DNA of 64,000 nucleotides from Taenia hydatigena (Eukaryota > Platyhelminthes > Cestoda > Cyclophyllidea > Taeniidae), in assembly GCA_036345935.2 (NCBI GenBank), contig JADWOT020000001.1, positions 25,515,232 through 25,579,231 on the forward strand, given 5' to 3'. Below the pieces are notes generated by a model. The model was not told the DNA's origin, did no database searches, and saw only the letters and a list, made by a program, of their open reading frames with translations. A program made the translations under genes and the position numbers. Within the stretch, counting starts at the first letter, position 1. Each line of letters starts with the position of its first letter. This document shows positions 14,705 through 56,767 of this stretch, piece by piece.

Positions 14705-17284
14705 AGTCTACTTAGTTTAACGAGACGATTTTGGAGAGAAGACATTTTTGAAGGACTCCAGCCACTCCCAAATAGTCATAGTTCGCTTGCGCAGATTTTA
14801 CTGAAAGGCTATCAATAACCGTGTCCTTTGGCGGCCTATTGAGCTGAAGTTCTTCTAGGAAAAGCAAAGGGAGACAATGCTTCAGTTTGGGAGTGGACAT
14901 CTGCGCCAACGCAATGTTCGCTTACGCAAAGTGATTGGGTTCAGGAAGCAGTTGCGTTGACGGCGGAATATATGGGCCAAGAGGAATTATTCGCAATTGC
15001 CTGATGTTGAGAGCGACTTGGTAATGTAGTGATGGTAGAAGAATTAAGTGGGTGGATTGGCATGAAAGGCCAAGTGAGCGGTAAATGATGAAACGTGTGC
15101 GTGAAATTATCATGAGAGTCCTTATAATGCCAGGATCAAACGTATGCCAAGTTGGCTGTTGTGGTTGAGCCAAAGACATGAACTTCTATGCGCCATGTGG
15201 AGCGGTCAAAGAGAACGTTGTGATTGTCACGAAGAAAACTACGCCTCGACTTTATTAGTCTAGCTGCAATTTTCAAAGTGAATTCTTCATCACTTCAAAT
15301 GGCACGCACACCACTTTGCACACAGTCCAAAGGTTTATTCCTTACGTCAACATGTTATGGTGACGTTTCGGACGACATGATGACAAGGCAGCAGCATGTT
15401 TGGTCGCAAAGGACGTAAGGCGTCATGCTATGTACTATTTAGTTAACGTTGTTGATTAATTTCAAAAAGTTTGCAAACGCGTGATGCAAACCAACTCACC
15501 AATATGAGCAAGCGCAACCGGCAAGGAATCGGTGTAGGCATGTCTTCCTCACCCCAGGAACAGCAGACGCTGAGGTGGAGTCATGATGCATACTGTGGTC
15601 TTGCTGCACAAATGGTTATGTTCACATCAGCATAACAGACTACCACTACCTCGTTAGTTGCAGGCAAGTGAACATCTGCAGGCGTGCATAATGTGCATAC
15701 ACAGTAGGGCAGGTGAGTCCTGGCACTTCCAATTTTGATCTTTGCAGTAGAAATTAGAGACTTGATAGCTTGGAAAAAGTGATGCCGTATCGACCACTCA
15801 ATAATGCCTCCGATTCATTAAAAATCCAAGTCGATATGCCACATTCGTGTTGTCTAGCTTTATGCTAGTGTTTCGGCCGGTGCACAAGCAAGATGGATCT
15901 GGTGCTAAATAGATTTGAGAGTCTTAATATGCAAGGGAATGGTTAGAAATGCTACGAAACGCTATCGTGCCTACCACACGTCCTCTCCTCCAAGCGGTTG
16001 TAGTGGTGAGAGTAGCCAATATCCACAACCTAGCTGCCGCGTGCAGCAAGAAGGGGAAGCTTGGCACCACCTTTTCAGCATGTGATAACACGGACTCATT
16101 CAAGCACAGTGGGGTACTTGTATGCGGTTAAGAGAATACTGTGCATTGATTGCTCTTTTGCTTGCAAGAGCATGCAAAGTGAAATGACAGTATGTTCGAC
16201 AGTGAAGTTAAATAAATCCTCCTGAGGCAGCTATAATGAGAGATACAGATTGCTTGTTCAATCATTCTAGGCCCTTTCGCCTCAATCCATTTAACCTGGT
16301 CTTACAATGCAGGCGTCTGATCAGTTGTGCGCCTTGTATTTCCAGATTTTTAAGAAACTCCCATACATGAAGGTGATTCTTCAGATGAAACCAATGTACA
16401 CTATTAAGCGATATAATGCTTAATGTGTCGTTGGTGAATTGTCAAGATAATACGCAGTCGATGAATGTGAATAGGGCAAAAATTCTCAATTCTATGTTAC
16501 TTCCATATAGATTTTGCACAATCCCCCCACTTAACTGAGTACCAGGTGAGGCGTTGTGATTGACCCAGACAAATGAGCTGAAGCGCGTCAAATGGTGGGC
16601 TCAGAGAAGCTTCTAGGAATGTCACAGTGAACCAAAGCTACTCCTCTGCCTATGTGGTTCTGCCGAGAATTTCACCTCATTAAATGTGAATTGGAGCAAG
16701 CAATTCAGGATTTCTTTGGAGGGATATAAGACCATGCAAATTTTTGGGGATGTGCAGGTGATAGGAACCCGGTGCCTTGTCAGCTCTAGGTTTCACAGGC
16801 ATCCAACATGCAGCAGTTGCGAATCGACCAAAAGTCGTAATATTTGAAGCTATAGCAATCAAAATCTCGATGATGGAAACATGACTTGAGCAGCCTTTGA
16901 ATATTATGTCTATCTTTTGCTACTTAAAAGAGCAAGGTGAGTGAGGAGGAAAGGTGTCTCTAGTCAATCCAGCCATTTAATTGCTTCATGTGCAAATTTA
17001 GTTGGGAGGAATAGCCTTCTGGCCACTTACTCAATGGCGACGTGCAGACGAGTATTGTGTGGCTTACGAATCCAAAGAACTGCCATGAGCTCGCTAGGAT
17101 GGCATGTTAATGCAGACCAAACTGGCTCAATTTGTATGATATGGGAGTGGACATCATGTAGCTTAAAGAAAGCAGTGCTATATGCCATGCTCTCCGAGAC
17201 GTGATCTTATTACTGCAAATGGCATCACCCAGTCGTGTGATCCACCACTTCGTGACTACAAATGTTTGCTGCTTTCCGAGGTCT

Positions 17285-17308
17285 TAGGCGTGTGCGTGTG
17301 TGTGCATG
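17285..17308 (+). repeat. GT-rich microsatellite upstream of left outer FN3 locus
   Basis: Interrupted GT run (GTGTGCGTGTGTGTGCATG). It is mirrored near 54123-54146 and has a CA/TA counterpart near 31167 in the spacer copy of the 5' flank. Confidence 0.5.
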
Positions 17309-17597
17309 AATGGTCTCACGAAAATCCATGCCATGCTGAAGGAGACTGAAAGCTCCATCAGCGAATCCCCTCCACCGTTATGAATGATAAACGATTGTAA
17401 GGAATTATAAAGAAAACATGCACATTCGAAATTGACACAAATAGGGCCTTTTTGCACCTCAATGATAATATGCTTGAAGGTTGAAGTTGAGTCCACCCGC
17501 GCAACCCATCACGGATTGCGCAATGTGAGCACGGCAAGGGTGCATTTTAAATCAGCACCAAGGCGTCCCATAGGCTCATTTGAATGTAGCCTATTGC

Positions 17598-17605
17598 TAT
17601 AAAAG
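17598..17605 (+). promoter_or_regulatory. TATA box of left outer FN3 locus
   Basis: TATAAAAG, 39 bp before the ATG. It is preceded by CCCATAGGCTCATTTGAATG about 30 bp upstream. Both elements recur at the other FN3 loci of this window. Confidence 0.7.
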
Positions 17606-17636
17606 CGTTGTGATTTGTGAGGACAAACCATTCATC

Positions 17637-18847
17637 ATGCTGAAGACGGTTCTTCAATTCAGTCTCGTGGTATTATTGACCACCCTGTGGGCTGTGAGTG
17701 GTGGTGCAGCGAGCGGTATGTTCTTTTCAAATATTTCGCTATGATAACCATGCGTAAACAGTACAACTTTCTTCCTTTCTGAGTTTCCTTCAATATTTTT
17801 ACACCGTAGTCCTAAGCCTATCTTCTACTAGCATCACGAGATGCATAAAATGTTGCCACCGTATGTGCTATATCTTCACAAAATTGTGGCTCTGACATAA
17901 CATTACGTATCAGTAGTAATGAGGTCTGCTAATCATCACCCTATGCGGCACACGCACTGCTTACTTCAGACTGGGTGATGGAATGCGTTTGCATCCTTAC
18001 ACTGATTTCATGATATCGGTTGCAAACAGTGGACATTTTTGTCATTCAAGGCAAGGTGAAGCGCTAGTAGGTTTGCTTAACAATGTGTCCTTCTTGCTTT
18101 TTTAAAGTATCAGTGGCAAAAAGCCAAGCGTTGCAATGTCCAAACTTCCACCTTACTTCAATTGGAGCCGAATTGATACTGATTTCGTTGAGTTAAGTTG
18201 GAATGTTGCTCAGTTGGGTAGATGGTACGCAAACATAGTTAAGCTCTCTGCGACAGGAATCTCTTACCAATTCGAGGAGCTAGTATCTACAGAATTCGCC
18301 CATGGAAGCCTGACTCTTAGGAACATGAGACCTACCTCGACCTACGCGATGACTTTGAAAGTAATAAAAATAGTTAGGTTCATTAGAACCTACACCAATG
18401 TTATTACAACAGCGTCCGAAGGTCAACCTGTGCACACACTTCTAATGCATAACTCCACGCTTTATTTGATTGTTGCTTATTTAGTAGCAAGTCATGAAAG
18501 CGGATGATAATTTTATTGTTATGCCTCAACCAGTAATGTTTATTGCATCGCGCCTCATTGTCCATTTGCATTATCCTTAGCACCGGAAATCGCTTCCATG
18601 ACTAACAAACTCACCGAAAAAAGAGCGTAAGTTGATGCGAAAATTTGAAGTGCTGTCTGCGGAAATTATCACGGCTCATTACTTGTCATCATCGGAATAA
18701 TCTTTTCCCATTGTAGGCTGCTGCGGTAAAGGATGCGTGCCAGTCGGCCATCGTTCGCTTCTGCCCAACAATAATGTGACATCTTATATTCAATCACTCT
18801 ATCATCACAAGCACAAGCTTCTCCTATGCTTGCTTTTGCTTAAATAA
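17637..18847 (+). pseudogene. FN3 oncosphere-antigen-like gene, left outer copy, frameshifted
   Basis: Three exons are inferred. Exon 1 (17637-17715) encodes a 26-residue signal peptide (MLKTVLQFSLVVLLTTLW...) ending in phase 1 before GTATGT. Exon 2 (18108-18421) encodes one FN3 domain with the motifs FNWSR, LSWNV and LRPTSTY. It is 314 nt long, where intact relatives have 315 or 318. One base is missing near 18120 (AAAAAGCC against AAAGGAGCC in the spacer gene), so a phase-1 junction reads out of frame and soon stops. I tested the nearby AG acceptors and none restores the frame. The donor after exon 2 is GTCAAC, where relatives have GTAAG. A possible last exon (18717-18847) follows an acceptor TTGTAG and ends in a leucine-rich tail with AATAAA overlapping the stop. 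The FN3 frame could still be read from an internal ATG at 18136 without a signal peptide. The family is secreted by the infective oncosphere; this copy is probably non-functional. Confidence 0.75.
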
Positions 18848-18849
18848 TA

Positions 18850-20617
18850 AAGTCCCGGTAACGGTCACCTCCTCAGTTGGTGGGCGCGTAATAGCTGGCA
18901 TTTGGCTGGTTACAATTGTAAGCAGCCTCATGCGGAGGGGCTTAATACCTGCATACATGTGTATCTCTCGCGCAACAATGGACGAATGACTGGGATATCT
19001 AGCTACTATTGGGCTTTACCGACTTCTGCAGGAGTTTGGATAGATTCGGCAACTAATTAACCACTACTGTTGTATGATTTGGACATGAAGTTGGGTGTCC
19101 AACGGATAAAATATATTTTCTAGATACCATCAATGCTCTTGCCACGCACTTCTTTCTCACTGCCATCACCAGCATCTACATTGCTGATTATCATTGGCTT
19201 TCGCGACTTTGAGAATGTCTGCAATGATTGTGTTGCGTTTGCTCACAACTGTTGCAAACGATAGATGCTAGACGACAGATCTTGATATGTGTGATCGGAT
19301 TCCCAGCAAATCGGTGATGCTGCATGAAAGGCCTGCCAGAAGCACTCTTCATCTGCAGCATATCTACATGCGGCATATCTGGTGACAGGCCGCCTCATGC
19401 AGCATTGCCCGTTCCTTCGTATATCAGAGCCATTCCTTCTGTTTCTTGCTAAAATTAGGACGATTTGCGTACATTCCTTGCAAATGTAGCTACCGGTTTT
19501 CTTGCTGTCTGCAAAGTCACATAACTAGCTGCCACAATGTAAAGTTGCCTCACCTTCCTCACTTTACCATTTCAAGCTATACACGAAACTCTGTTTAGCT
19601 TAGCACAACATTCAGTAATTTAAAATGCTGTAGCAACTAGTGAGACGGATATACTGCACACTTCCCCATTTCTTACTACGAAATCTATACACTGTTAAGA
19701 TAGAAAAATCGGCTTCTTTTAGGGTAGCCAGTATACGTGCATGGTACGTGCACATTGGATGATCGCTTCTTCATTCACTGTGCGAAGTCACGGCAGGTGG
19801 ATGCATCCATCTAACCTTCCCATGCTCTCGCAGCTGACCGAGCATATGCTCACAAATTGCTTTGACGGAGGTTTAGATGGCCTCCCTTATGCCTGAATTC
19901 TCTCTTGTTCCCTCAGTACTCAGGATCAGTGCGCCTATCTTAAATTCATTCGTCTTACATTAACAAAGCATTTATGTGCAGGTACGCGTAACCTGCTAGT
20001 CTTTCCCCTTCAGCGCTGCTTGACATGCCTCTCTGCGTATTCTGCAAGAGATTTGACTTTTAAAGGCTTTCCAAATATAGGCCGTGGAAAGTAAGGTAGC
20101 TATGTTGAATGACTTACCGTGACACAAGTAAGCCTTCATCTCTGATGCTTCATCGCTAAAGCTCAATGAGGCGGTGCATTTTCTTTTCCAGGAGAGGAGT
20201 GGATAGAGAAGGAGCATTCGACATAGCAATACTCAGTGCAGCCTTTCCATTCACCTCGTCTAGTGGCTGTGAAAATGAGACTATTCTGTTTTGCTCAGAT
20301 GTCAACTCGTTTCACTTTGGTTTCTCAAATTAACCAGCCATATTCTGAGATTGATTTTTAATTTTTCGTGTCCCTAGACTCACTCGTCCTGTTAACGGCA
20401 TTTTACGAGCCAACAGCAAGTTTAACTTTGATTGACAATGCTAAGCATTTGCCAGCAGCGAGTATCCTTGCGAGCACATAAACCTGGTCACACCAGAATT
20501 CGCCAAAGCCGCACGATTCGATAGCTCGCTACTACGCGTGAACAATCTCTTGGGGGCGAAAGAGATACTTTCTAGCAGTCGCAGTGTTCTTTGATGCAAT
20601 AGATCAGTGTATCAGTC
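18850..20617. other. Arm sequence without recognisable gene (mirror 50814-52581)
   Basis: Lies between the outer FN3 locus and the dispersed repeat copy B. Only short frames are present. Two arm-to-arm differences (18884, 19749) fall here. Confidence 0.55.
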
Positions 20618-22140
20618 AGCGAACGTGTGTTGGCTGCCAAACTTTTTGTCGAAGCTATGTTATGGCACTCAATCCCAAAAACACCACTTTCTCAGATGTT
20701 GGTACTCTGCGAACGCAAAGGCGTATCTGCAGATTTAAATATATTTTGCACCGAAATCCAATGCAGCAGATCTCCACAGGACTTCAAGCGTCTTGATAGA
20801 TATATTTGCATGCCTTATCACTCTTGGTCAATCTTCCACTCCTCTATGATTCATTTCTCTGCACCCACTACTGGCAGTCCATTTAGCTTCCTTCAGCCAC
20901 TTATTATTGCGGTTGTGTTTTCGTGTGCTTAACTCCAATCGAGCCCCACTGAAATTCATTTTGCAAATATTGGGAACGAAGCTTGCAGCAGAGAGTCTGC
21001 ATTGTGATTTTGCTTTTGACGTACAAACCTTTAAAGTATCTCTCGTGCTGTCGTCTGATAGATCACAGTTCCGAACTATCGGTAGGACTCAACAGATCTC
21101 TCGTTACTTGGCAGAGCATAAACATTGACAAGGCCCTAAAGTAAACGTGATTGAGTGCCAAAGACTCTGTTATGATCCGCTAACTAGGTGTTACATTTGA
21201 CTAAGTGTATAGTAAGAAGCATCCATCCTGTTGGCCCACATGCATTTTTTAGAAAAGGCTCGCCAGCATTTCGTATAAATTTGGCGGAATCTTCTTGCTG
21301 CAGCGTTTATTCTCTTTCATTTAGATCTGCCGTTCTGTGAAAGAACAAAGAAACTGGCGGTAATATATGGAAAACAGATTTGCTGCTATCCTCACAATCA
21401 AGCCCTTTTCAGTTTATACCAACCAGTGTTATGCTAATGACTGAAGCAGATATTTTCGTCGCGACATAATTTGAAGATTTTGTGCTATCATCTGATCTAC
21501 AGCAGGTTGCATCTCCAGCCGCACAGCAACAGCGCACCTCTTACTCTTTTGAGCAATACATCAAACAGGCTTTGACGTTAGATGTGATAACTTGCAATAG
21601 ATACCCCCCTCCCGGCAGCCGCCCAACACTATGTCCAGTTGCATAGGAATGGTCATCCTGATATTTGCAAAGAATAAGCTTTTAGTGCAAAGCTAAATGC
21701 ACATTTATAGTGTGCTGTCTACGAGGCGTCAGCTGCGCCATCGCTTATGTTTCAGTCAGTGTGCACCAACATTTATGGCTTTCGCTATAAAGAAAAGTAT
21801 GCATTCCTCCTGCCCATGTCTTCACTAGGTATCATTTATTTCCACATCAACACGGAATGGCATGGTGGTAAGCAAGCTCGGAAAGCGAACCCTTCAGCTA
21901 AGCAGACACGCCTTCTATATTAATTTACTTGTGTGGACTGAGTGGAGGAGAATCGTGGTAAATGGAACATAAGCATCAGTGAATAGAAATTGGGGCCAAT
22001 GCGACAGGCAGACCTTCGTAATACAGTAGCAGCAGATCCAACGTTAAGCATATGACCACGCGAAAATCCTAGCGAGAATGTCCAATACAAAGGTGGGAGC
22101 TCATTATAGCTAACCAGACTTGCAATCTGCTCTACAATGC
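20618..22140 (+). repeat. Dispersed repeat family, copy B (left arm)
   Basis: Same family as 6105-7565. It starts at the block TGTGTTGGCTGCC and runs to CTCTACAATGCATAAC. The segment with the GCGCAGCTGACGCCTCG motif (minus-strand reading) and the 3' end match copy A closely. It is mirrored in the right arm at 49291-50813. Confidence 0.7.
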
Positions 22141-22730
22141 ATAACAACGAGGATGTAATTTTCGATGCCCAGCCGCAAACCCGGGTCGGCCATACCATCC
22201 CCTAGATCCAAACCCGGGTATGTTATGGCTTGCATGTGTAGGCGTCATGAGTTGTAGACGCAGCGCATTTTATAGTACACGAAGAGTGAATCAAACACTA
22301 TTGAGAGGATAATAATCAGGACAATTATTTCATGCAAATGCACATGATGGGTGAAGGCTTGACCTCATCCTTTTCATTTAGGTGCCGTAGCCAGTCGTCC
22401 TACGAATCGCAATGCATTCCAACGTCATCGTAGTCTTCCTGTTCCTACCACGCAATGAGATGAATTCTGTGCATTTATTTAGCATTTGAGGATCATTTAT
22501 TCATTTATTCTGTCCTACCGAGGAGGCGACGTCTAAAAATCCATGCTGCTTGATGACCCCATCTCAACCTTGCTTGTCTCAAATTACTCAACTTGATGGC
22601 GTAAAAGCGGCCGTTTGCTCAGATTATTCTTGTAAAATTAGTATGATCGAAGTAATGGAATTGTGATGCAGACCATGCATCAAGTGAATGCGATGGAAAT
22701 AGCCTGCCTGGCCTTCCAGTTTCCATTAGC

Positions 22731-24353
22731 TTCTCTTACAAATTGCAGATGCGCCTTGCAACGCGTGTCAACAAGGAATTCATTTGGCATATCTATGCTC
22801 ATTGCCTGAGATGGCCTTACTGACTCAATGGTGGGCAATTGAGTATCGCATTGGCTCGTTTGTGTAAGGATCATTAGATATAGGGCAAAACAATTTGCAG
22901 TACACTAAGTAAGCGGGAATAATAAAGACAATAACTGTGGCTACAAAGTCAACGATTGCGCCATGGCCCGAGCACCTCCTTTTTTACAACCCTCATAACA
23001 TCCGCAAACTAAAGCAATCTGAGTGAACAAAACTTAAGAGCCAGTTTTTTAGTCAAGTAAGAATAGCCATGCTTGAATCGCTTATAGCATGGATCTACAA
23101 CATTTGCCAACGCTGTTCCAACTCTCTCTGCCGGTTTTGTTTCATTTTCAAGCTTTTGCAAATATGATTAATGCACCTTGCTAATATGGTGCTGTAATAT
23201 CAGCGGAGCAAAACGAAGTCCAAAAATGTCAGAAGGGCAAAAATTGCAAGTTATGTATGAGAATGTACAAAATATGAACGCTTAAGAATTAGCAGTGCTG
23301 TTAAATTTAGAGAATGTGACTTTTACATGTGCTCAGATAATTTGTGATGCGAAAATAGTCACAAATGAATTGCTTTCTAACAATAACTTCATTACCAAGC
23401 GTCAACCAAGTAGAGTACATTGGCAGCGGATTTATTTATCTCAGCAGCCCCATTTGATAATAAACTTACAGTCTCCCCAATCTATAGTCTTATGGTCAGC
23501 AATTCGAAGCGAGTTGCTTGATTTGATTCAGTCTGCATTAATGCAGCTGCAGTGACTCAGCCTACCGGCTCTACCGACTACCCACTCACCAGTCCAACTT
23601 AAATGCATAACATTTGTCTCATACATCTCATTCAGTGTTTGTGGTTGGCGATGATCTAGCCCTAGGACCATGTCTTCTTGCAGTTGGATTAATTAGCCAA
23701 GCGTCTGTTGATAAGTTTGTCACCAGATTAATTATTTGATGCATTGTGGTGTTGCTAATGAGTGCTACATTACGCTGAGACATGTCGCAGCCAACATCGC
23801 CTCCAAAGAGATACTGTCATTGTTCCAACATCCTGCGCTAACGCTCTCTGTGGCGAAGGCGCCATTATCTGGTCACAACCTGTCTGGTAATAGGGCCAGC
23901 CATATATTACCTGACTTCGGTGATTGAAGAAAGTTCAAATCGTGAGTAAAAGACTTGCTTTGAACCTCCTGTATTGACTGACTTTTCTCTCCTTTTAGTG
24001 CGTTTCGTCCAAAGTTGATAATCAGCAAGCACGCCACTAATCTGCAATCTTTGGCCAAAGTCTCATTTTGCAGCGAAATGCGCACCATCTGTATTAGCCT
24101 TCATAGTGTGGATGGAGAGGTTCTCAAAATATTTTCTCGGCAGACAGAAATTAGTGGATCACTTTGTGAGCCATACCAAGTTTGCTTCATAGGGAGTTCT
24201 AAGCGTGCGCCATTTCTGCTGCCTTCATCTAAAGGCAGACAGTTATGAGGGAACCAGTTTGGGAATTAGACGAATTGTGACCGACGAAATGGTTTAAATT
24301 TAGCAAAGTCATCATAATCCAAACCAATGACCCACATGTACTGGCAAATTATT
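22731..24353 (-). repeat. Arm segment duplicated in the spacer (left)
   Basis: Inverted relative of 38236-39520 and mirror of 47078-48700. Includes the 370-bp extra stretch at 23167-23545. No coding region is supported. Confidence 0.7.
23167..23545. mobile_element. Candidate 370-bp insertion with 9-bp flanking repeats (left arm)
   Basis: Mirror of 47886-48264, so the event predates or was carried with the arm duplication. Confidence 0.4.
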
Positions 24354-24364
24354 TTGCATTCTAT

Positions 24365-25532
24365 AGCGCAACCTGCGGTAGATCAGATAATAGCGCAAAA
24401 AACTTCAAGGCATACTCCGGCGAAAATATCTGCTTCAGTCACTATCATAACACTGGTTGGTATAAACTGAAAAGGGCTTGATTGTGAGGATAGCAGCAAA
24501 TCAGATTTCCATATATTACCGCCAGTTTCTTTGTTCTATCAGGACTTGGGTTTTCATGTCAAAGAAGTCACAGAACGGCAGACCAAAACAAAAGGGATTA
24601 ATTGCTGTATCAAGAAAATTCCTCCAAATTTACGCAAAATACAAATAAATAATCTTAAATGAGAACTGCGCGTAGGTCGACGGGACTGCGCATCAGTTAG
24701 CATAATTATCATAATTAGAATTTGTCAACTGCATCGAAACCACTTATTCGTGAATGTATGGATGCTTCTTACCATACACGTAGTCAACTGTAACACCTAT
24801 TTAGCGGATCACAACAGAGTCTTTGTCACTTATTCACGCTTTCTTTAGGGCGCTGCCAATGTTTATGCTCTACCAAGTGACAAGAGATCTGTTGAGTCAT
24901 ACCGATAGCTCAGAACTGCGATGGATCAGACGACACCACGAGAGGTACTGTAAAGGTATGTGCGACGAAAGCAAAACCGTAATGCCGACTGTCTGCTGCA
25001 AATAGTGTCGTCAATATTTGCAAAATAAATTCCAGTAGGGCTTAGTTGCAGTTAAACACATTAGAACACAATCGCAACAATGAGTGGCTGATGGGAGCTA
25101 AATGGATGGCCAGTGGTGGGTGCAGAGAAATGAATCATGGAGGAGTGGGAGATTGACCAAGAGCGATAAGGCATGCAAATTTATCTATCAAGACGTTTGA
25201 AGTCCTGTGGAGATCTGCTGCATTGGAGTTTCAGTGCAAAAAACATTTAAATCTGCAGAAATGTCTTCGCATTGGTAGAATACCAACATCTGATAAGGTG
25301 GTGCTTTTGGGATTGAGTGCCATAACACAGCTTCGACAGGAAGTTCGGCAGCCAGCACACGTTTGCCGACTGCTTTTTTAACCTGCGTGAATTGGTCGCG
25401 CACCTTTGAGGACACCGAGGTAAACATTGGTGTGGGGAGCATGAAGTAGACGCCACAGGTGGGAGATTGTCACCCTCCAGCTCACTCATGGCTGTGCTTT
25501 GTCGTGCGTCTCAACAAAGATGGCACTACAGC
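24365..25532 (-). repeat. Dispersed repeat family, copy C (left arm)
   Basis: Minus-strand copy beginning at a block TGTAGTGCCATCTTTG that is also the start of the copy at 56768, so this may be the true 5' end of the element. It carries a frame starting MSELEGDNLPPVASTS. It ends abruptly at 24365 (GCAGGTTGCG), next to a segment shared with 38236-39520. Confidence 0.7.
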
Positions 25533-27490
25533 TGAAATTTTGGTTTGCTCTGTGTCAAGTTCCGGGTTGTGCTAAACATCAAATCAACCCTATTGTTCAC
25601 CGCAGGGTTTAAACAAGTCAGCACACAGATTCGATTCCCAGCAGCATCTCACATACGTGACGCCTGTAGACCACCGCCTTACCACCACTACTAATTTTGT
25701 GTTCATAGAACGATATGGATGCGGTATTTGAAGGTGAGCCCTGCTGAGTAGTAACTATTATCAGAGACGCAAAATTCACCATCATTTTGGAAAGAAACCT
25801 TCCTCTAAATCAGTTTACTATATAAACTCGCATTTCTACTATCCGAAATCCACGCAGAGGCATCTGCGCACTCATACGAATAGCTTTGGAGCAGTAGCAG
25901 CTTAATATTTAGGGTGTGTCTTTTGCATCCACTTAGGCGGTACATGCAGAAAGGCAAAGGCTTTGTCAATCGCATTTTACCTCTGCTTGCAAAATCAAAC
26001 ATAATTAGCATAAGAACTGATTCAAGTCTCTATATATAAAGCTTGATGCACAGTAAACGGTGTGTGTCAAAGCGCGTGGCGAAGCAGGCAAGCTTAAAAG
26101 AAACCAGAATAGAATTATTCCCTTTAGGTTAAGCTTTGATGCCGGTAGAACGTTTAAAGGCAAATCGCACTGCAACTAACGTTAGAAGATCAGGCACAAA
26201 ATATTAGGCTATTTTATTTCTTTGTCAGCTGCATTCTTATTGGACGTCATTTTGCAGCAACCTAAAGCCGCACATTTGTTAATCACTAGCTTTTTAATTA
26301 AAATGCTCACTGTTTATAATGGATCCAATTATTAACCCTGAGCATTTTTTCTGACGCTAAAATGGCAACATTTATTTGCAGAATGTTAGCTTGCACCTTT
26401 TATAGCTGAATCACTCTTGCATCAGCAGCGCTGAGTATTGGTATCCACGCTTTGAGCGTTTCCGCACTTCCGAGAACATCTTCTTTGCGTCTATTTATTG
26501 CGCGTATCCTTTCCTCGCTAAGGACAATGCGAGTGCTTCCACGCGCACACTTTATAAACCTCGCTGTGGAAGAACTATTAACTCAACACGTAAGACGCAT
26601 GTTGCCCCTTTTATTCACCGCACAATGGCAGTGAGACATTGATCTTTGATGGTACTTTAAAATGATAACAGGGGAGTATTTCGCTGAGCAGGTGATAATT
26701 TTCTTTAAAAATAGCATTCAACTACGTTAAAACCTGAATGGCCTGCAGTAGACAGCAAACCATTTGGAATTAAATGACAGCATTTGTCCAGCAATTTGGC
26801 TTAATTACATTGAGTTGACGTTCCCCATTTCCGACCTCTCATTAAATCCTGTCGCATTAGGTGGTATGTGCGATTAGGTAAGAAAACGGCCACTTCGACA
26901 CCACACATGTAGAGGGAAGGGGTAGGTGGTGGTGTCAATTAAATACCATGACATCAATGCATGATAGCCTGCTGAGGTAGAGCGGACTAATCGTGGTTCA
27001 CCGAATGCATGCGATAGCTTTAAATAGACACAAGTTTACTTCAAAGGACCAAAAACCTCGCCACGGCGTGATAATAACTTCTAAACAACGCTAAAAGCGT
27101 CAATTAAGATTCGATTAAATGCTCCTAACTGGTCGGACTCTCAGGAAGTAAGCAACACAATTTGAGAAATGCTTTTGTATTTGTGGGTGATAAAAATTGT
27201 GAAGGATTTAGGTGCCCTTTGCATTAAAAAGGAGAAAGTGCATGTGAGGACTACATTTTGGCCATTGTTATTAAAGAAAAATGACAAAAACGTCAAAAGT
27301 GCTCCACAGACATGCGTTGGTGGTGTAGAAGGTAGCAAATATGATAGTTCTCATTATCGATAAGCAGACCTGAATGAATATCGGCTGAAGTTCACTATGC
27401 TTCATAGCAGCCTGTAGTGAAAAGCATTTCGGTAGTTGCGAGTTATGGCTGTGATGATGCTCGTAGAAGAAGCTCCTTAACAGTTGCACT
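25533..27490. other. Arm sequence without recognisable gene (mirror 43939-45898)
   Basis: Downstream of the inner FN3 gene. Contains the single arm-to-arm indel (about 27199) and a weak tRNA-like B-box near 25641. No coding region is supported. Confidence 0.5.
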
Positions 27491-27493
27491 AAC

Positions 27494-29031: not shown

Positions 29032-29060
29032 CTTGAATGCTTTGAACTCACGAACCACAG

Positions 29061-29068
29061 CTTTTATG
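29061..29068 (-). promoter_or_regulatory. TATA-like box of left inner FN3 gene
   Basis: CATAAAAG, 37 bp before the ATG. A diverged upstream box TCATAGGCTGATT matches the CCATAGGCTCATT of the other loci, so the promoter layout is conserved even though the protein has diverged. Confidence 0.6.
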
Positions 29069-29809
29069 CAACCGATGCGCACACGAATCAGCCTATGAAA
29101 CAACATCGTTATTTTGATCTACAAACCCGCTTTGATGTAAGCGCTGCGTGCATCTCGTGATGGGTTGCGTAAGTGATTTCTCGTTCACCCTTCAAGAGTT
29201 TCATCACTGAGGTGCTCAAAGGCGTGATTTCTGTAAAATGAAGTGCGGATTAAAGCCATGAAAGAACAGCTTGATTTTTGCTTAACGTTGTTGTTGGCTT
29301 ATTTGGTCACAACGTACAAAGTAATCGACATTATCCGGAAAGTGCACTGCGTCGTTTAGGCAACTAACTTTCCTGACGAAATGAGGCATCCCTCATTGTA
29401 AACCAAGCTTCAACTTCTAAAATTTTATTCTGACTCACTAGGTCGACGCTGCTTAACTCATGTCAGATTCATTGCAAATATTTGAGTTTGTATTGCATCT
29501 CTTGAAACGCGCATTTCACTTGAACTTTAAGCAAGGTGCATGAGCCCAAAGAATGCCGGGCATATTATCGTGTTGCCTCAGCAGCTGCTCGCTTGAAGCT
29601 AAAGACATGACTCTCACCAACAAACATGCACATTTAAACTGGCAAGTCTCAGCGGCCACTGTTAGCTCACTGATGTCAACCATGCCGGTGCCTAATCTAC
29701 TTGTCCAACAGAAATTCCAGGGTTAAATAACAAAAGACCTTAACATTTCTTTTAAGATCGTGTGAATGCGGCCTAAAGAAAACTGAAAAATCTGCTTGAA
29801 TAATTGTTT

Positions 29810-32995: not shown

Positions 32996-33024
32996 CATCT
33001 ATTTGAAGAATGCAAACTAAATGG

Positions 33025-42368: not shown

Positions 42369-42397
42369 CTGTGGTTCGTGAGTTCAAAGCATTCAAG

Positions 42398-45898: not shown

Positions 45899-47066
45899 GC
45901 TGTAGTGCCATCTTTGTTGAGACGCACGACAAAGCACAGCCATGAGTGAGCTGGAGGGTGACAATCTCCCACCTGTGGCGTCTACTTCATGCTCCCCACA
46001 CCAATGTTTACCTCGGTGTCCTCAAAGGTGCGCGACCAATTCACGCAGGTTAAAAAAGCAGTCGGCAAACGTGTGCTGGCTGCCGAACTTCCTGTCGAAG
46101 CTGTGTTATGGCACTCAATCCCAAAAGCACCACCTTATCAGATGTTGGTATTCTACCAATGCGAAGACATTTCTGCAGATTTAAATGTTTTTTGCACTGA
46201 AACTCCAATGCAGCAGATCTCCACAGGACTTCAAACGTCTTGATAGATAAATTTGCATGCCTTATCGCTCTTGGTCAATCTCCCACTCCTCCATGATTCA
46301 TTTCTCTGCACCCACCACTGGCCATCCATTTAGCTCCCATCAGCCACTCATTGTTGCGATTGTGTTCTAATGTGTTTAACTGCAACTAAGCCCTACTGGA
46401 ATTTATTTTGCAAATATTGACGACACTATTTGCAGCAGACAGTCGGCATTACGGTTTTGCTTTCGTCGCACATACCTTTACAGTACCTCTCGTGGTGTCG
46501 TCTGATCCATCGCAGTTCTGAGCTATCGGTATGACTCAACAGATCTCTTGTCACTTGGTAGAGCATAAACATTGGCAGCGCCCTAAAGAAAGCGTGAATA
46601 AGTGACAAAGACTCTGTTGTGATCCGCTAAATAGGTGTTACAGTTGACTACGTGTATGGTAAGAAGCATCCATACATTCACGAATAAGTGGTTTCGATGC
46701 AGTTGACAAATTCTAATTATGATAATTATGCTAACTGATGCGCAGTCCCGTCGACCTACGCGCAGTTCTCATTTAAGATTATTTATTTGTATTTTGCGTA
46801 AATTTGGAGGAATTTTCTTGATACAGCAATTAATCCCTTTTGTTTTGGTCTGCCGTTCTGTGACTTCTTTGACATGAAAACCCAAGTCCTGATAGAACAA
46901 AGAAACTGGCGGTAATATATGGAAATCTGATTTGCTGCTATCCTCACAATCAAGCCCTTTTCAGTTTATACCAACCAGTGTTATGATAGTGACTGAAGCA
47001 GATATTTTCGCCGGAGTATGCCTTGAAGTTTTTTGCGCTATTATCTGATCTACCGCAGGTTGCGCT
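45899..47066 (+). repeat. Dispersed repeat family, copy C (right arm)
   Basis: Mirror of 24365-25532. Compared with copies A and B it lacks the 3' third, stopping after the ATTATCTGATCTACCGCAGG block. It contains short frames (45942-46184, 45989-46243) partly shared with the copy at 56768, suggesting a once-coding element. Confidence 0.7.
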
Positions 47067-47077
47067 ATAGAATGCAA

Positions 47078-48700
47078 AATAATTTGCCAGTACATGTGGG
47101 TCATTGGTTTGGATTATGATGACTTTGCTAATTTTAAACCATTTCGTCGGTCACAATTCGTCTAATTCCCAAACTGGTTCCCTCATAACTGTCTGCCTTT
47201 AGATGAAGGCAGCAGAAATGGCGCACGCTTAGAACTCCCTATGAAGCAAACTTGGTATGGCTCACAAAGTGATCCACTAATTTCTGTCTGCCGAGAAAAT
47301 ATTTTGAGAACCTCTCCATCCACACTATGAAGGCTAATACAGATGGTGCGCATTTCGCTGCAAAATGAGACTTTGGCCAAAGATTGCAGATTAGTGGCGT
47401 GCTTGCTGATTATCAACTTTGGACGAAACGCACTAAAAGGAGAGAAAAGTCAGTCAATACAGGAGGTTCAAAGCAAGTCTTTTACTCACGATTTGAACTT
47501 TCTTCAATCACCGAAGTCAGGTAATATATGGCTGGCCCTATTACCAGACAGGTTGTGACCAGATAATGGCGCCTTCGCCACAGAGAGCGTTAGCGCAGGA
47601 TGTTGGAACAATGACAGTATCTCTTTGGAGGCGATGTTGGCTGCGACATGTCTCAGCGTAATGTAGCACTCATTAGCAACACCACAATGCATCAAATAAT
47701 TAATCTGGTGACAAACTTATCAACAGACGCTTGGCTAATTAATCCAACTGCAAGAAGACATGGTCCTAGGGCTAGATCATCGCCAACCACAAACACTGAA
47801 TGAGATGTATGAGACAAATGTTATGCATTTAAGTTGGACTGGTGAGTGGGTAGTCGGTAGAGCCGGTAGGCTGAGTCACTGCAGCTGCATTAATGCAGAC
47901 TGAATCAAATCAAGCAACTCGCTTCGAATTGCTGACCATAAGACTATAGATTGGGGAGACTGTAAGTTTATTATCAAATGGGGCTGCTGAGATAAATAAA
48001 TCCGCTGCCAATGTACTCTACTTGGTTGACGCTTGGTAATGAAGTTATTGTTAGAAAGCAATTCATTTGTGACTATTTTCGCATCACAAATTATCTGAGC
48101 ACATGTAAAAGTCACATTCTCTAAATTTAACAGCACTGCTAATTCTTAAGCGTTCATATTTTGTACATTCTCATACATAACTTGCAATTTTTGCCCTTCT
48201 GACATTTTTGGACTTCGTTTTGCTCCGCTGATATTACAGCACCATATTAGCAAGGTGCATTAATCATATTTGCAAAAGCTTGAAAATGAAACAAAACCGG
48301 CAGAGAGAGTTGGAACAGCGTTGGCAAATGTTGTAGATCCATGCTATAAGCGATTCAAGCATGGCTATTCTTACTTGACTAAAAAACTGGCTCTTAAGTT
48401 TTGTTCACTCAGATTGCTTTAGTTTGCGGATGTTATGAGGGTTGTAAAAAAGGAGGTGCTCGGGCCATGGCGCAATCGTTGACTTTGTAGCCACAGTTAT
48501 TGTCTTTATTATTCCCGCTTACTTAGTGTACTGCAAATTGTTTTGCCCTATATCTAATGATCCTTACACAAACGAGCCAATGCGATACTCAATTGCCCAC
48601 CATTGAGTCAGTAAGGCCATCTCAGGCAATGAGCATAGATATGCCAAATGAATTCCTTGTTGACACGCGTTGCAAGGCGCATCTGCAATTTGTAAGAGAA
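47078..48700 (+). repeat. Arm segment duplicated in the spacer (right)
   Basis: Diverged direct relative of 38236-39520. Homology starts directly where the dispersed repeat copy C ends at 47066. Confidence 0.7.
47886..48264. mobile_element. Candidate 370-bp insertion with 9-bp flanking repeats (right arm)
   Basis: TGCATTAAT occurs at 47886-47894 and again at 48256-48264. The paralogous spacer sequence near 39030 lacks everything between and has only one similar motif (ACATTAAAT). This fits an insertion with a 9-bp target-site duplication, or a deletion between short repeats in the spacer copy. An 86-codon frame (47876-48136, minus) fills most of it but resembles nothing known to me. No terminal inverted repeat is visible. 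Confidence 0.4.
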
Positions 48701-49290
48701 GCTAATGGAAACTGGAAGGCCAGGCAGGCTATTTCCATCGCATTCACTTGATGCATGGTCTGCATCACAATTCCATTACTTCGATCATACTAATTTTACA
48801 AGAATAATCTGAGCAAACGGCCGCTTTTACGCCATCAAGTTGAGTAATTTGAGACAAGCAAGGTTGAGATGGGGTCATCAAGCAGCATGGATTTTTAGAC
48901 GTCGCCTCCTCGGTAGGACAGAATAAATGAATAAATGATCCTCAAATGCTAAATAAATGCACAGAATTCATCTCATTGCGTGGTAGGAACAGGAAGACTA
49001 CGATGACGTTGGAATGCATTGCGATTCGTAGGACGACTGGCTACGGCACCTAAATGAAAAGGATGAGGTCAAGCCTTCACCCATCATGTGCATTTGCATG
49101 AAATAATTGTCCTGATTATTATCCTCTCAATAGTGTTTGATTCACTCTTCGTGTACTATAAAATGCGCTGCGTCTACAACTCATGACGCCTACACATGCA
49201 AGCCATAACATACCCGGGTTTGGATCTAGGGGATGGTATGGCCGACCCGGGTTTGCGGCTGGGCATCGAAAATTACATCCTCGTTGTTAT

Positions 49291-50813
49291 GCATTGTAGA
49301 GCAGATTGCAAGTCTGGTTAGCTATAATGAGCTCCCACCTTTGTATTGGACATTCTCGCTAGGATTTTCGCGTGGTCATATGCTTAACGTTGGATCTGCT
49401 GCTACTGTATTACGAAGGTCTGCCTGTCGCATTGGCCCCAATTTCTATTCACTGATGCTTATGTTCCATTTACCACGATTCTCCTCCACTCAGTCCACAC
49501 AAGTAAATTAATATAGAAGGCGTGTCTGCTTAGCTGAAGGGTTCGCTTTCCGAGCTTGCTTACCACCATGCCATTCCGTGTTGATGTGGAAATAAATGAT
49601 ACCTAGTGAAGACATGGGCAGGAGGAATGCATACTTTTCTTTATAGCGAAAGCCATAAATGTTGGTGCACACTGACTGAAACATAAGCGATGGCGCAGCT
49701 GACGCCTCGTAGACAGCACACTATAAATGTGCATTTAGCTTTGCACTAAAAGCTTATTCTTTGCAAATATCAGGATGACCATTCCTATGCAACTGGACAT
49801 AGTGTTGGGCGGCTGCCGGGAGGGGGGTATCTATTGCAAGTTATCACATCTAACGTCAAAGCCTGTTTGATGTATTGCTCAAAAGAGTAAGAGGTGCGCT
49901 GTTGCTGTGCGGCTGGAGATGCAACCTGCTGTAGATCAGATGATAGCACAAAATATTCAAATTATGTCGCGACGAAAATATCTGCTTCAGTCATTAGCAT
50001 AACACTGGTTGGTATAAACTGAAAAGGGCTTGATTGTGAGGATAGCAGCAAATCTGTTTTCCATATATTACCGCCAGTTTCTTTGTTCTTTCACAGAACG
50101 GCAGATCTAAATGAAAGAGAATAAACGCTGCAGCAAGAAGATTCCGCCAAATTTATACGAAATGCTGGCGAGCCTTTTCTAAAAAATGCATGTGGGCCAA
50201 CAGGATGGATGCTTCTTACTATACACTTAGTCAAATGTAACACCTAGTTAGCGGATCATAACAGAGTCTTTGGCACTCAATCACGTTTACTTTAGGGCCT
50301 TGTCAATGTTTATGCTCTGCCAAGTAACGAGAGATCTGTTGAGTCCTACCGATAGTTCGGAACTGTGATCTATCAGACGACAGCACGAGAGATACTTTAA
50401 AGGTTTGTACGTCAAAAGCAAAATCACAATGCAGACTCTCTGCTGCAAGCTTCGTTCCCAATATTTGCAAAATGAATTTCAGTGGGGCTCGATTGGAGTT
50501 AAGCACACGAAAACACAACCGCAATAATAAGTGGCTGAAGGAAGCTAAATGGACTGCCAGTAGTGGGTGCAGAGAAATGAATCATAGAGGAGTGGAAGAT
50601 TGACCAAGAGTGATAAGGCATGCAAATATATCTATCAAGACGCTTGAAGTCCTGTGGAGATCTGCTGCATTGGATTTCGGTGCAAAATATATTTAAATCT
50701 GCAGATACGCCTTTGCGTTCGCAGAGTACCAACATCTGAGAAAGTGGTGTTTTTGGGATTGAGTGCCATAACATAGCTTCGACAAAAAGTTTGGCAGCCA
50801 ACACACGTTCGCT
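49291..50813 (-). repeat. Dispersed repeat family, copy B (right arm)
   Basis: Mirror of 20618-22140 in the right palindrome arm. One difference from the left copy lies at left position 21476. Confidence 0.7.
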
Positions 50814-52583
50814 GACTGATACACTGATCTATTGCATCAAAGAACACTGCGACTGCTAGAAAGTATCTCTTTCGCCCCCAAGAGATTGTTCACGCGTAGT
50901 AGCGAGCTATCGAATCGTGCGGCTTTGGCGAATTCTGGTGTGACCAGGTTTATGTGCTCGCAAGGATACTCGCTGCTGGCAAATGCTTAGCATTGTCAAT
51001 CAAAGTTAAACTTGCTGTTGGCTCGTAAAATGCCGTTAACAGGACGAGTGAGTCTAGGGACACGAAAAATTAAAAATCAATCTCAGAATATGGCTGGTTA
51101 ATTTGAGAAACCAAAGTGAAACGAGTTGACATCTGAGCAAAACAGAATAGTCTCATTTTCACAGCCACTAGACGAGGTGAATGGAAAGGCTGCACTGAGT
51201 ATTGCTATGTCGAATGCTCCTTCTCTATCCACTCCTCTCCTGGAAAAGAAAATGCACCGCCTCATTGAGCTTTAGCGATGAAGCATCAGAGATGAAGGCT
51301 TACTTGTGTCACGGTAAGTCATTCAACATAGCTACCTTACTTTCCACGGCCTATATTTGGAAAGCCTTTAAAAGTCAAATCTCTTGCAGAATACGCAGAG
51401 AGGCATGTCAAGCAGCGCTGAAGGGGAAAGACTAGCAGGTTACGCGTACCTGCACATAAATGCTTTGTTAATGTAAGACGAATGAATTTAAGATAGGCGC
51501 ACTGATCCTGAGTACTGAGGGAACAAGAGAGAATTCAGGCATAAGGGAGGCCATCTAAACCTCCGTCAAAGCAATTTGTGAGCATATGCTCGGTCAGCTG
51601 CGAGAGCATGGGAAGGTTAGATGGATGCATCCACCTGCCGTGACTTCGCACAGTGAATGAAGAAGCGATCATCCAATGTGCGCGTACCATGCACGTATAC
51701 TGGCTACCCTAAAAGAAGCCGATTTTTCTATCTTAACAGTGTATAGATTTCGTAGTAAGAAATGGGGAAGTGTGCAGTATATCCGTCTCACTAGTTGCTA
51801 CAGCATTTTAAATTACTGAATGTTGTGCTAAGCTAAACAGAGTTTCGTGTATAGCTTGAAATGGTAAAGTGAGGAAGGTGAGGCAACTTTACATTGTGGC
51901 AGCTAGTTATGTGACTTTGCAGACAGCAAGAAAACCGGTAGCTACATTTGCAAGGAATGTACGCAAATCGTCCTAATTTTAGCAAGAAACAGAAGGAATG
52001 GCTCTGATATACGAAGGAACGGGCAATGCTGCATGAGGCGGCCTGTCACCAGATATGCCGCATGTAGATATGCTGCAGATGAAGAGTGCTTCTGGCAGGC
52101 CTTTCATGCAGCATCACCGATTTGCTGGGAATCCGATCACACATATCAAGATCTGTCGTCTAGCATCTATCGTTTGCAACAGTTGTGAGCAAACGCAACA
52201 CAATCATTGCAGACATTCTCAAAGTCGCGAAAGCCAATGATAATCAGCAATGTAGATGCTGGTGATGGCAGTGAGAAAGAAGTGCGTGGCAAGAGCATTG
52301 ATGGTATCTAGAAAATATATTTTATCCGTTGGACACCCAACTTCATGTCCAAATCATACAACAGTAGTGGTTAATTAGTTGCCGAATCTATCCAAACTCC
52401 TGCAGAAGTCGGTAAAGCCCAATAGTAGCTAGATATCCCAGTCATTCGTCCATTGTTGCGCGAGAGATACACATGTATGCAGGTATTAAGCCCCTCCGCA
52501 TGAGGCTGCTTACAATTGTAACCAGCCAAATGCCAGCTATTACGCGACCACCAACTGAGGAGGTGACCGTTACCGGGACTTTA

Positions 52584-53794
52584 TTATTTAAGCAAAAGCA
52601 AGCATAGGAGAAGCTTGTGCTTGTGATAATAGAGTGATTGAATATAAGATGTCACATTATTGTTGGGCAGAAGCGAACGATGGCCGACTGGCACGCATCC
52701 TTTACCGCAGCAGCCTACAATGGGAAAAGATTATTCCGATGATGACAATTAATGAGCCGTGATAATTTCCGCAGACAGCACTTCAAATTTTCGCATCAAC
52801 TTACGCTCTTTTTTCGGTGAGTTTGTTAGTCATGGAAGCGATTTCCGGTGCTAAGGATAATGCAAATGGACAATGAGGCGCGATGCAATAAACATTACTG
52901 GTTGAGGCATAACAATAAAATTATCATCCGCTTTCATGACTTGCTACTAAATAAGCAACAATCAAATAAAGCGTGGAGTTATGCATTAGAAGTGTGTGCA
53001 CAGGTTGACCTTCGGACGCTGTTGTAATAACATTGGTGTAGGTTCTAATGAACCTAACTATTTTTATTACTTTCAAAGTCATCGCGTAGGTCGAGGTAGG
53101 TCTCATGTTCCTAAGAGTCAGGCTTCCATGGGCGAATTCTGTAGATACTAGCTCCTCGAATTGGTAAGAGATTCCTGTCGCAGAGAGCTTAACTACGTTT
53201 GCGTACCATCTACCCAACTGAGCAACATTCCAACTTAACTCAACGAAATCAGTATCAATTCGGCTCCAATTGAAGTAAGGCGGAAGTTTGGACATTGCAA
53301 CGCTTGGCTTTTTGCCACTGACACTTCAAAAAAGCAAGAAGGACACATTGTTAAGCAAATCTACTAGCGCTTCACCTTGCCTTGAATGACAAAAATGTCC
53401 ACTGTTTGCAACCGATATCATGAAATCAGTGTAAGGATGCAAACGCATTCCATCACCCAGTCTGAAGTAAGCAGTGCGTGTGCCGCATAGGGTGATGATT
53501 AGCAGACCTCATTACTACTGATACGTAATGTTATGTCAGAGCCACAATTTTGTGAAGATATAGCACATACGGTGGCAACTTTTTATGCATCTCGTGATGC
53601 TAGTAGAAGATAGGCTTAGGACTACGGTGTAAAAATATTGAAGGAAACTCAGAAAGGAAGAAAGTTGTACTGTTTACGCATGGTTATCATAGCGAAATAT
53701 TTGAAAAGAACATACCGCTCGCTGCACCACCACTCACAGCCCACAGGGTGGTCAATAATACCACGAGACTGAATTGAAGAACCGTCTTCAGCAT
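52584..53794 (-). pseudogene. FN3 oncosphere-antigen-like gene, right outer copy, frameshifted
   Basis: Mirror copy of 17637-18847. Exon 1 is 53716-53794, exon 2 is 53010-53323 and the possible last exon is 52584-52714. It carries the same single-base loss at the start of exon 2 and the same GTCAAC donor, so the lesions predate the duplication or were spread by conversion. Differences from the left copy include two bases around the exon 2 acceptor (TGAAGTG here, TAAAGTA there), a silent change in the Pro-Pro of the FN3 start, and Val instead of Ile after the Tyr-Ala-Asn of the C-strand region. Probably a pseudogene. Confidence 0.75.
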
Positions 53795-53825
53795 GATGAA
53801 TGGTTTGTCCTCACAAATCACAACG

Positions 53826-53833
53826 CTTTTATA
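53826..53833 (-). promoter_or_regulatory. TATA box of right outer FN3 locus
   Basis: Mirror image of the left outer promoter: TATAAAAG, 39 bp before the ATG, with the CATAGGCTCATTTG box upstream. The promoter looks intact although the coding frame is broken. Confidence 0.7.
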
Positions 53834-56767
53834 GCAATAGGCTACATTCAAATGAGCCTATGGGACGCCTTGGTGCTGATTTAAAATGCACCCTTGCCGT
53901 GCTCACATTGCGCAATCCGTGATGGGTTGCGCGGGTGGACTCAACTTCAACCTTCAAGCATATTATCATTAAGGTGCAAAAAGGCCCTATTTGTGTCAAT
54001 TTCGAATGTGCATGTTTTCTTTATAATTCCTTACAATCGTTTATCATTCATAACGGTGGAGGGGATTCGCTGATGGAGCTTTCAGTCTCCTTCAGCATGG
54101 CATGGATTTTCGTGAGACCATTCATGCACACACACGCACACGCCTAAGACCTCGGAAAGCAGCAAACATTTGTAGTCACGAAGTGGTGGATCACACGACT
54201 GGGTGATGCCATTTGCAGTAATAAGATCACGTCTCGGAGAGCATGGCATATAGCACTGCTTTCTTTAAGCTACATGATGTCCACTCCCATATCATACAAA
54301 TTGAGCCAGTTTGGTCTGCATTAACATGCCATCCTAGCGAGCTCATGGCAGTTCTTTGGATTCGTAAGCCACACAATACTCGTCTGCACGTCGCCATTGA
54401 GTAAGTGGCCAGAAGGCTATTCCTCCCAACTAAATTTGCACATGAAGCAATTAAATGGCTGGATTGACTAGAGACACCTTTCCTCCTCACTCACCTTGCT
54501 CTTTTAAGTAGCAAAAGATAGACATAATATTCAAAGGCTGCTCAAGTCATGTTTCCATCATCGAGATTTTGATTGCTATAGCTTCAAATATTACGACTTT
54601 TGGTCGATTCGCAACTGCTGCATGTTGGATGCCTGTGAAACCTAGAGCTGACAAGGCACCGGGTTCCTATCACCTGCACATCCCCAAAAATTTGCATGGT
54701 CTTATATCCCTCCAAAGAAATCCTGAATTGCTTGCTCCAATTCACATTTAATGAGGTGAAATTCTCGGCAGAACCACATAGGCAGAGGAGTAGCTTTGGT
54801 TCACTGTGACATTCCTAGAAGCTTCTCTGAGCCCACCATTTGACGCGCTTCAGCTCATTTGTCTGGGTCAATCACAACGCCTCACCTGGTACTCAGTTAA
54901 GTGGGGGGATTGTGCAAAATCTATATGGAAGTAACATAGAATTGAGAATTTTTGCCCTATTCACATTCATCGACTGCGTATTATCTTGACAATTCACCAA
55001 CGACACATTAAGCATTATATCGCTTAATAGTGTACATTGGTTTCATCTGAAGAATCACCTTCATGTATGGGAGTTTCTTAAAAATCTGGAAATACAAGGC
55101 GCACAACTGATCAGACGCCTGCATTGTAAGACCAGGTTAAATGGATTGAGGCGAAAGGGCCTAGAATGATTGAACAAGCAATCTGTATCTCTCATTATAG
55201 CTGCCTCAGGAGGATTTATTTAACTTCACTGTCGAACATACTGTCATTTCACTTTGCATGCTCTTGCAAGCAAAAGAGCAATCAATGCACAGTATTCTCT
55301 TAACCGCATACAAGTACCCCACTGTGCTTGAATGAGTCCGTGTTATCACATGCTGAAAAGGTGGTGCCAAGCTTCCCCTTCTTGCTGCACGCGGCAGCTA
55401 GGTTGTGGATATTGGCTACTCTCACCACTACAACCGCTTGGAGGAGAGGACGTGTGGTAGGCACGATAGCGTTTCGTAGCATTTCTAACCATTCCCTTGC
55501 ATATTAAGACTCTCAAATCTATTTAGCACCAGATCCATCTTGCTTGTGCACCGGCCGAAACACTAGCATAAAGCTAGACAACACGAATGTGGCATATCGA
55601 CTTGGATTTTTAATGAATCGGAGGCATTATTGAGTGGTCGATACGGCATCACTTTTTCCAAGCTATCAAGTCTCTAATTTCTACTGCAAAGATCAAAATT
55701 GGAAGTGCCAGGACTCACCTGCCCTACTGTGTATGCACATTATGCACGCCTGCAGATGTTCACTTGCCTGCAACTAACGAGGTAGTGGTAGTCTGTTATG
55801 CTGATGTGAACATAACCATTTGTGCAGCAAGACCACAGTATGCATCATGACTCCACCTCAGCGTCTGCTGTTCCTGAGGTGAGGAAGACATGCCTACACC
55901 GATTCCTTGCCGGTTGCGCTTGCTCATATTGGTGAGTTGGTTTGCATCACGCGTTTGCAAACTTTTTGAAATTAATCAACAACGTTAACTAAATAGTACA
56001 TAGCATGACGCCTTACGTCCTTTGCGACCAAACATGCTGCTGCCTTGTCATCATGTCGTCCGAAACGTCACCATAACATGTTGACGTAAGGAATAAACCT
56101 TTGGACTGTGTGCAAAGTGGTGTGCGTGCCATTTGAAGTGATGAAGAATTCACTTTGAAAATTGCAGCTAGACTAATAAAGTCGAGGCGTAGTTTTCTTC
56201 GTGACAATCACAACGTTCTCTTTGACCGCTCCACATGGCGCATAGAAGTTCATGTCTTTGGCTCAACCACAACAGCCAACTTGGCATACGTTTGATCCTG
56301 GCATTATAAGGACTCTCATGATAATTTCACGCACACGTTTCATCATTTGCTGCTCGCTTGGCCTTTCTCATCAATCTACCTATTTAATCACTTACCATCA
56401 CTCTATTACCAAGTCACTTTCAAAACATTAGTTTATTGCGCATAACTCCACTTTGCCCACATATTCTACCATCAATGCAAATACTTCTTAAAAGTAGTGA
56501 CTTTGAGTAAACGAACATTGCGTTGGCGCAGATGTTCAATCCAAACTCAAGCATTGTCTCCCTTTGCTTTTCCTAGAAGAACTTTAGCTCAATAGGCCGC
56601 CAAAGGACACGGTTATTGATGGCTTTTCAGTAAAATCTACGCAAGCGAACTGTGACTGGTTGGGATTGGCTGGAGTGCTTCATAAATAGCTTCTCTTCCC
56701 CGCTGCGCTAAGTAGGCTTTGATTAGTAAAGTGCTTAAAAGAGCATCAAAACGTGCTTTTATTTAGG

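Follow-up and report, generated by a model that had tools for sequence, protein, structure and literature searches.

Within the 64,000-nucleotide window of the Taenia hydatigena genome analysed here (contig JADWOT020000001.1, positions 25,515,232 to 25,579,231), the assembled sequence contains a giant palindrome whose arms, of about 14.7 kb each, carry genes for proteins with a fibronectin type III (FN3) domain that we place in a family of taeniid oncosphere antigens. The arms, their sharp edges within older collinear homology, an excess of identity between them, differences polarised in both directions and a patch of higher divergence are all present in the sequence. The explanation that we favour, with a probability of roughly two in three, is an inverted duplication that took place long ago and was later overlaid by long-tract interlocus gene conversion or break-induced copying, and the pattern suggests a recent overwriting of one arm by the other.

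A palindrome with nearly identical arms

Comparison of the window with itself by BLAST gave as its top-scoring repeat an inverted pair (14664-29840 versus 56759-41590) of 15,181 columns with 99.24% identity, inside which base-by-base alignment located a near-identical core (15083-29765 versus 41664-56348). These are the arm coordinates proposed in an initial annotation of the locus, which had described arms about 99.9% identical by eye around an 11.9 kb spacer. The computed identity was 99.88%, with 16 substitutions and one 2-base indel making up 17 difference events over 14,683 bp; the longest run free of any arm difference was about 2.9 kb, and the exact length of the spacer was 11,898 bp. 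The window contains no Ns. The element thus shows the features of a large palindrome: inverted arms longer than 10 kb, more than 99% identical, with a spacer between them and differing flanks.

15083..29765, forward strand: left palindrome arm, putatively homogenised core of 14,683 bp, 17 events against the right arm, 99.88%
41664..56348, reverse strand: right palindrome arm, putatively homogenised core of 14,685 bp, from base-by-base alignment
29766..41663, no strand: asymmetric spacer of 11,898 bp with the fifth FN3 gene, from self-comparison, alignment and FN3 profile

The FN3 genes are arranged as a1 (forward) and a2 (reverse) in the left arm, b2 (forward) and b1 (reverse) in the right arm, and sp (reverse) in the spacer.

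Older homology beyond the arm edges

Near-identity does stop at the arm limits of the initial annotation, but the sequence outside them is not unrelated. An outer extension, inverted and collinear, was 82.2% identical between the two sides (336/409 aligned columns), and an inner one, also inverted and collinear, 83.8% (62/74), the drop from 99.88% taking place within a few bases at the core edges. When the outer piece was set at 40 random placements in the right flank, identity averaged 42% and reached 55.5% at most, against the 82.2% observed, and a search of the window at E 1e-5, with the right arm masked, gave no further matches to either extension. With the extensions included, the homologous blocks are nearly equal in length (15,177 versus 15,170 bp). 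The outer extension had a Jukes–Cantor distance of 0.204, compared with 0.0012 over the whole core and 0.0005 once the patch described below was set aside.

14664..15082, forward strand: older outer extension of the inverted duplicate, left, 82.2% to 56349-56759, 336/409 columns
56349..56759, reverse strand: older outer extension, right, from alignment to 14664..15082
29766..29840, forward strand: older inner extension, left, 83.8% to 41590-41663, 62/74 columns
41590..41663, reverse strand: older inner extension, right, from alignment to 29766..29840

On this pattern, the element reads as an inverted duplicate of greater age, at least about 15.18 kb long, the interior of which has been made nearly identical. 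Because the collinear homology of 82-84% runs past both edges, the arms appear as a sharply bounded, recently homogenised tract, more alike than the age of the duplicate allows. The proposal that the palindrome homogenises its contents is upheld by this difference between the core and the homology just outside it, and the diverged extensions are stronger evidence for it than the initial annotation had.

Thirty-six bases separate the outer extension of the left arm from another inverted pair, a small one (11275-11743 and 14159-14627; 469 bp, 98.1%), parts of which are 71-77% related to the region upstream of FN3 genes (16248-16664, 31826-32260).

Differences between the arms

The arm-to-arm differences are unevenly distributed. 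Ten of the 17 events fall within 1,425 bp (17460-18884; scan statistic P ~6e-5, 100,000 simulations, width picked post hoc) and five within 165 bp (P ~4e-4, width likewise picked post hoc), leaving seven in the 13.26 kb outside the patch. The cluster surrounds the a1/b1 gene. The simplest reading is that the patch was missed by the last conversion event; hypermutation or selection may instead have caused it.

17460..18884, no strand: patch holding 10/17 arm-to-arm differences, scan statistic P ~6e-5, width post hoc

The diverged spacer copy was used for polarisation. Over the eight differences lying in the stretch homologous to sp (a ninth site, 18682, lies outside it and was left out of the count), sp carried the right-arm allele at four, the left-arm allele at two and neither at two. 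Since sp sides with each arm at some sites, mutations would have accrued on both arms after homogenisation. In addition, 10/16 substitutions are transitions (P 0.016 against an expectation of one-third), so that the differences look more like real mutations than long-read errors. Separate mutations with such an excess of transitions favour two arms that really exist and that the assembly has kept separate.

FN3 genes of the palindrome

The FN3 exon profile found five copies in the window, the next match having E 1.9; as the arms are copies of each other, only three of the five genes are independent.

17637..18507, forward strand: gene a1, signal-peptide-like exon 1 at 17637-17715, FN3 frame at 18106-18507, probably broken
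52924..53794, reverse strand: gene b1, counterpart of a1 in the right arm, sharing its faults, from FN3 profile and splice analysis
27494..29031, reverse strand: gene a2, intact-looking, predicted exons 29031-28953, 28043-27729 and 27546-27494, 148 aa predicted
42398..43935, forward strand: gene b2, right-arm copy of a2 with 0 base differences in the gene, from alignment and splice consensus
30002..30835, reverse strand: gene sp in the spacer, exons 1 (30835-30757) and 2 (30319-30002) open

The first exon appeared signal-peptide-like by eye in all five genes. Genes a2 and b2 read intact, with exons of 79, 315 and 53 bp in phase 1/1 and a protein of 148 residues predicted from splice consensus; as regards the GPI anchor or hydrophobic C-terminus of EG95, the best-placed exon 3 of a2 by the same prediction would encode a short C-terminal end in which no hydrophobic tail is seen by eye, other candidate exons being present. 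The spacer gene has open exons 1 and 2, the second of 318 bp, with no single choice for exon 3. Gene a1 and its copy b1 have the same two faults, a phase mismatch between exons 1 and 2 when joined at the conserved splice sites and a second donor that departs from consensus, so this gene is probably broken unless unusual splicing rescues it.

An AT-rich box, [CT]ATAAAAGC, lies 37-39 bases 5' of the ATG of each FN3 gene (at 17598, 29068, 30874, 42361 and 53833), which for a2 and b2 places a TATA-like box 37 bases before the start codon. The motif occurs five times in the window, exactly at those gene sites, compared with a mean of 1.9 in shuffled sequence and at least five in 5/200 first-order shuffles, and is likely a shared core promoter of these genes.

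The antigen gene cluster of the initial annotation is present, with five FN3 exons, but the exon of sp lies between the arms, and of the two types of gene that the arms carry one appears broken. The idea that the palindrome exists for, or acts on, antigens in particular is not borne out, given that a damaged copy (a1/b1) is kept in both arms alongside the intact, identical a2/b2. Because a1 and b1 share their faults, the palindrome seems to preserve damaged and sound genes with equal fidelity.

Origin of the near-identity

In the course of events that we propose, a block of FN3 antigen-type genes would have been duplicated long ago in inverted orientation, leaving flanking remnants now at 82-84% identity. 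Much later, interlocus gene conversion (or break-induced copying) would have copied one arm onto the other over a tract of about 14.7 kb, leaving about 410 bp at one end of the homologous block and 75 bp at the other unconverted. Conversion may have occurred in two or more layers, presumably driven by pairing of the arms in inverted orientation, and crossing-over between the arms would occasionally invert the spacer as a probable side effect. We infer conversion from the pattern in the sequence, as sharp-edged near-identity inside older homology is what is expected of long-tract conversion or break-induced copying. For the arms of the human Y palindrome P6, conversion with inferred minimum tracts of up to 9,023 bp is described (PMC3723533). 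Some observations weigh against our explanation. A tract of 14.7 kb exceeds the minimum tracts inferred for P6, which makes several overlapping events or break-induced copying probable. The guanine plus cytosine (GC) content of the arms is not raised, at 42.96% compared with 43.65% in the spacer (P 0.27), giving no sign of long-term GC-biased conversion. In addition, the age of the inverted layout is judged from the diverged extensions of one window only.

A single recent inverted duplication, mediated by pre-existing repeats at both target edges and involving neither an older second arm nor ongoing homogenisation, would explain the low divergence outside the patch, where seven events in 13.26 kb are as expected after one event; the 42% of the window in older duplicates, counted without the arm-versus-arm match, could have supplied the homology at the edges. 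We consider it unlikely, however, because it requires two independent repeats with the right spacing and inverted orientation on both sides, whereas the extensions match nothing else in the window at E 1e-5 and the two blocks are near-equal in length, and because the patch, more than tenfold more diverged, suggests more than one layer. Very unlikely, in our opinion, is an assembly artefact in which one arm was placed twice through gap filling, haplotype mixing or an inverted chimera of whole-genome amplification. Long near-identical inverted repeats are certainly difficult to assemble, and artificial palindromes arise in amplified DNA (PMC6218980), but an artefact is hard to square with the diverged extensions: a fold-back chimera should show mirrored flanks and little spacer, and the flanks here differ save for the 82-84% homology, which an assembler is not expected to invent in collinear form. 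Haplotype mixing alone could imitate low divergence but would not produce extensions that are inverted and collinear, and the substitutions are separate and derived on both arms, without any single-base indel difference in the core. Finally, selection for a higher dose of the a2/b2 antigen could keep the copies identical and maintain the palindrome, and would then be a motive for conversion rather than an alternative to it. The absence of base differences between a2 and b2, both of which read intact, and the TATA-like box before their ATG fit this idea, which nevertheless seems rather improbable to us, as the equally identical sequence is mostly non-coding and the other gene type of the arms (a1/b1) looks broken on both sides.

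Placement in the oncosphere-antigen family

By fold, by similarity to printed EG95 peptides and by exon structure, we place the FN3 genes in the taeniid EG95/45W/16K/18K family. They encode a single fibronectin type III domain, as members of that family do. Five EG95 peptides (PMC7244849, PMC11876539) were compared with the three independent FN3 exons, and in six of the 15 pairs at most 13 of 5000 shuffles scored as high (67 to 4085 in the other nine). The six pairs were EG95 residues 20-63 against a1, sp and a2 (13, 0 and 2 shuffles, respectively), residues 94-108 against a1 and sp (0 in both) and residues 96-110 against sp (0). Two EG95 segments match collinearly, their spacing being 45 residues in EG95 and 44 here by hand count. 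In addition, a2 and b2 show the three-exon layout of signal peptide, FN3 domain and C-terminus, with an exon 2 of 315 bp, into which a1 and b1 do not fit; exon 2 of EG95 has 317 sites, as summed from Table 1 of PMC2671473.

The link between the palindrome and antigen function is circumstantial. A Pfam scan of 18 open frames gave nothing above cut-off, with two sub-threshold matches (E 0.25 and 0.14), and no transposon proteins were seen among those frames, the only ones scanned. A search for proteins homologous to the a1 frame returned four candidates, none at E <=0.01, and a2 compared with viral contigs gave nine pattern stretches, none related; the collections searched seem poor in animals, so neither result is evidence of novelty.

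Comparison with known systems

Tapeworms are hermaphrodites and are not known to have a non-recombining sex chromosome such as the human Y. The human Y palindromes, P6 among them, resemble the element described here in being large inverted repeats with a spacer, mostly gene-bearing and homogenised by conversion, with arm identities above 99.9% compared with 99.88% here (PMC3723533). P6 differs in lying on a non-recombining sex chromosome and in having arms of more than 100 kb. Arm GC is raised in P6 and P3, unlike here, but not in P4, P5, P7 and P8, so this is not a required feature of palindromes (PMC3723533). Long inverted repeats of Caenorhabditis (F44E5.4/F44E5.5 and the HSP16 locus) are also comparable, as inverted gene duplicates with near-identical arms, other parts diverging, for which conversion was proposed; in one pair the 5' parts are identical and the 3' parts diverged, somewhat as in a1 versus sp (PMC1803023). 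The F44E5.4 locus is much smaller, with arms of 2,207 bp and a spacer of 126 bp, and its age was established from three species (PMC1803023), compared with the diverged extensions only in our case.

Among antigens, EG95 of Echinococcus and 45W, 16K and 18K of Taenia are likewise small secreted-type FN3 proteins encoded by three exons in multigene families with pseudogenes, with 317 sites in exon 2 of EG95 compared with 315 and 318 bp here (PMC2671473); Tm16 and Tm18 family members are covered in PMC2706984. In contrast to the present locus, the four Eg95 genes of Echinococcus granulosus are on chromosomes 2 and 4, and the terms "palindrom" and "inverted" have no occurrences in the main text of that assembly paper (PMC8894454). 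Among the matches listed in the open-licence literature, none described a palindrome or an inverted repeat at an antigen locus of tapeworms. Trypanosome VSG and Plasmodium var genes share recombination among antigen gene copies, but there conversion diversifies the expressed antigens, whereas the effect observed here is homogenisation.

Homogenisation by a palindrome would be a known kind of process in a new setting, a tapeworm antigen locus, in an animal that is not known to have sex chromosomes. If our explanation is right, long-tract palindrome homogenisation operates in a flatworm antigen cluster, paralogues related to veterinary vaccine antigens could be replaced in 15-kb blocks, and pseudogenes could spread along the same conversion route. 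Gene counts of the family from short reads might also mislead, two copies being identical, and the diverged extensions would offer a built-in yardstick for homogenisation in other strains. A bolder extension, in which we place little confidence, is that the palindrome serves as an autosomal recombination unit of the oncosphere-antigen locus, where conversion would keep intact copies in step, crossing-over would flip the orientation of the spacer and its third antigen gene, and copy number and sequence would evolve in blocks.

Other duplicates in the window

Duplicates of differing age make up much of the locus: 67.6% of the window lies in intra-window duplicates, or 42.0% when the arm-versus-arm match is not counted (alignments >=70 bp, E 1e-5). 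No tandem repeats, tRNAs or Rfam families (gathering threshold) were found in the window. One older duplicate is in the spacer.

30154..32997, reverse strand: older diverged copy of arm 15482-18269 (a1 upstream, exon 1, intron 1, start of exon 2), 76.4%, 2,869 columns

Between a1 and sp, identity was 78.7% in the upstream 2 kb and 77.2% in intron 1. Exon 2 (18108-18421 versus 30319-30002) showed proportions of synonymous and non-synonymous differences (pS and pN) of 0.449 and 0.350, with a ratio of non-synonymous to synonymous divergence (dN/dS) of 0.69, the other two gene pairs having 0.63 and 0.67. Synonymous sites differed at 29/64, compared with 88/386 sites of intron 1 (Fisher P 3e-4). 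Since synonymous divergence in exon 2 exceeds that of intron 1, the comparison suggests different histories for the 5' part and the FN3 part, that is, a mosaic with a break in exon 2. Positive selection is not needed to explain the exon 2 divergence, as the excess extends to synonymous sites.

A repeat family of about 1 to 1.5 kb, with 77-86% identity, is present in the arms and both flanks (6110-7573, 20613-22154, 24368-25387, 56982-58320). It was considered as a second gene family and discarded, as four pairwise comparisons, judged by eye, gave no clear codon-position bias. Finally, a direct repeat (33019-34903 and 62501-64000, 82-89%) is shared by the spacer and the right flank and runs to the end of the window; together with the copy at 30154-32997, it makes the left part of the spacer resemble the outer right arm and its flank.

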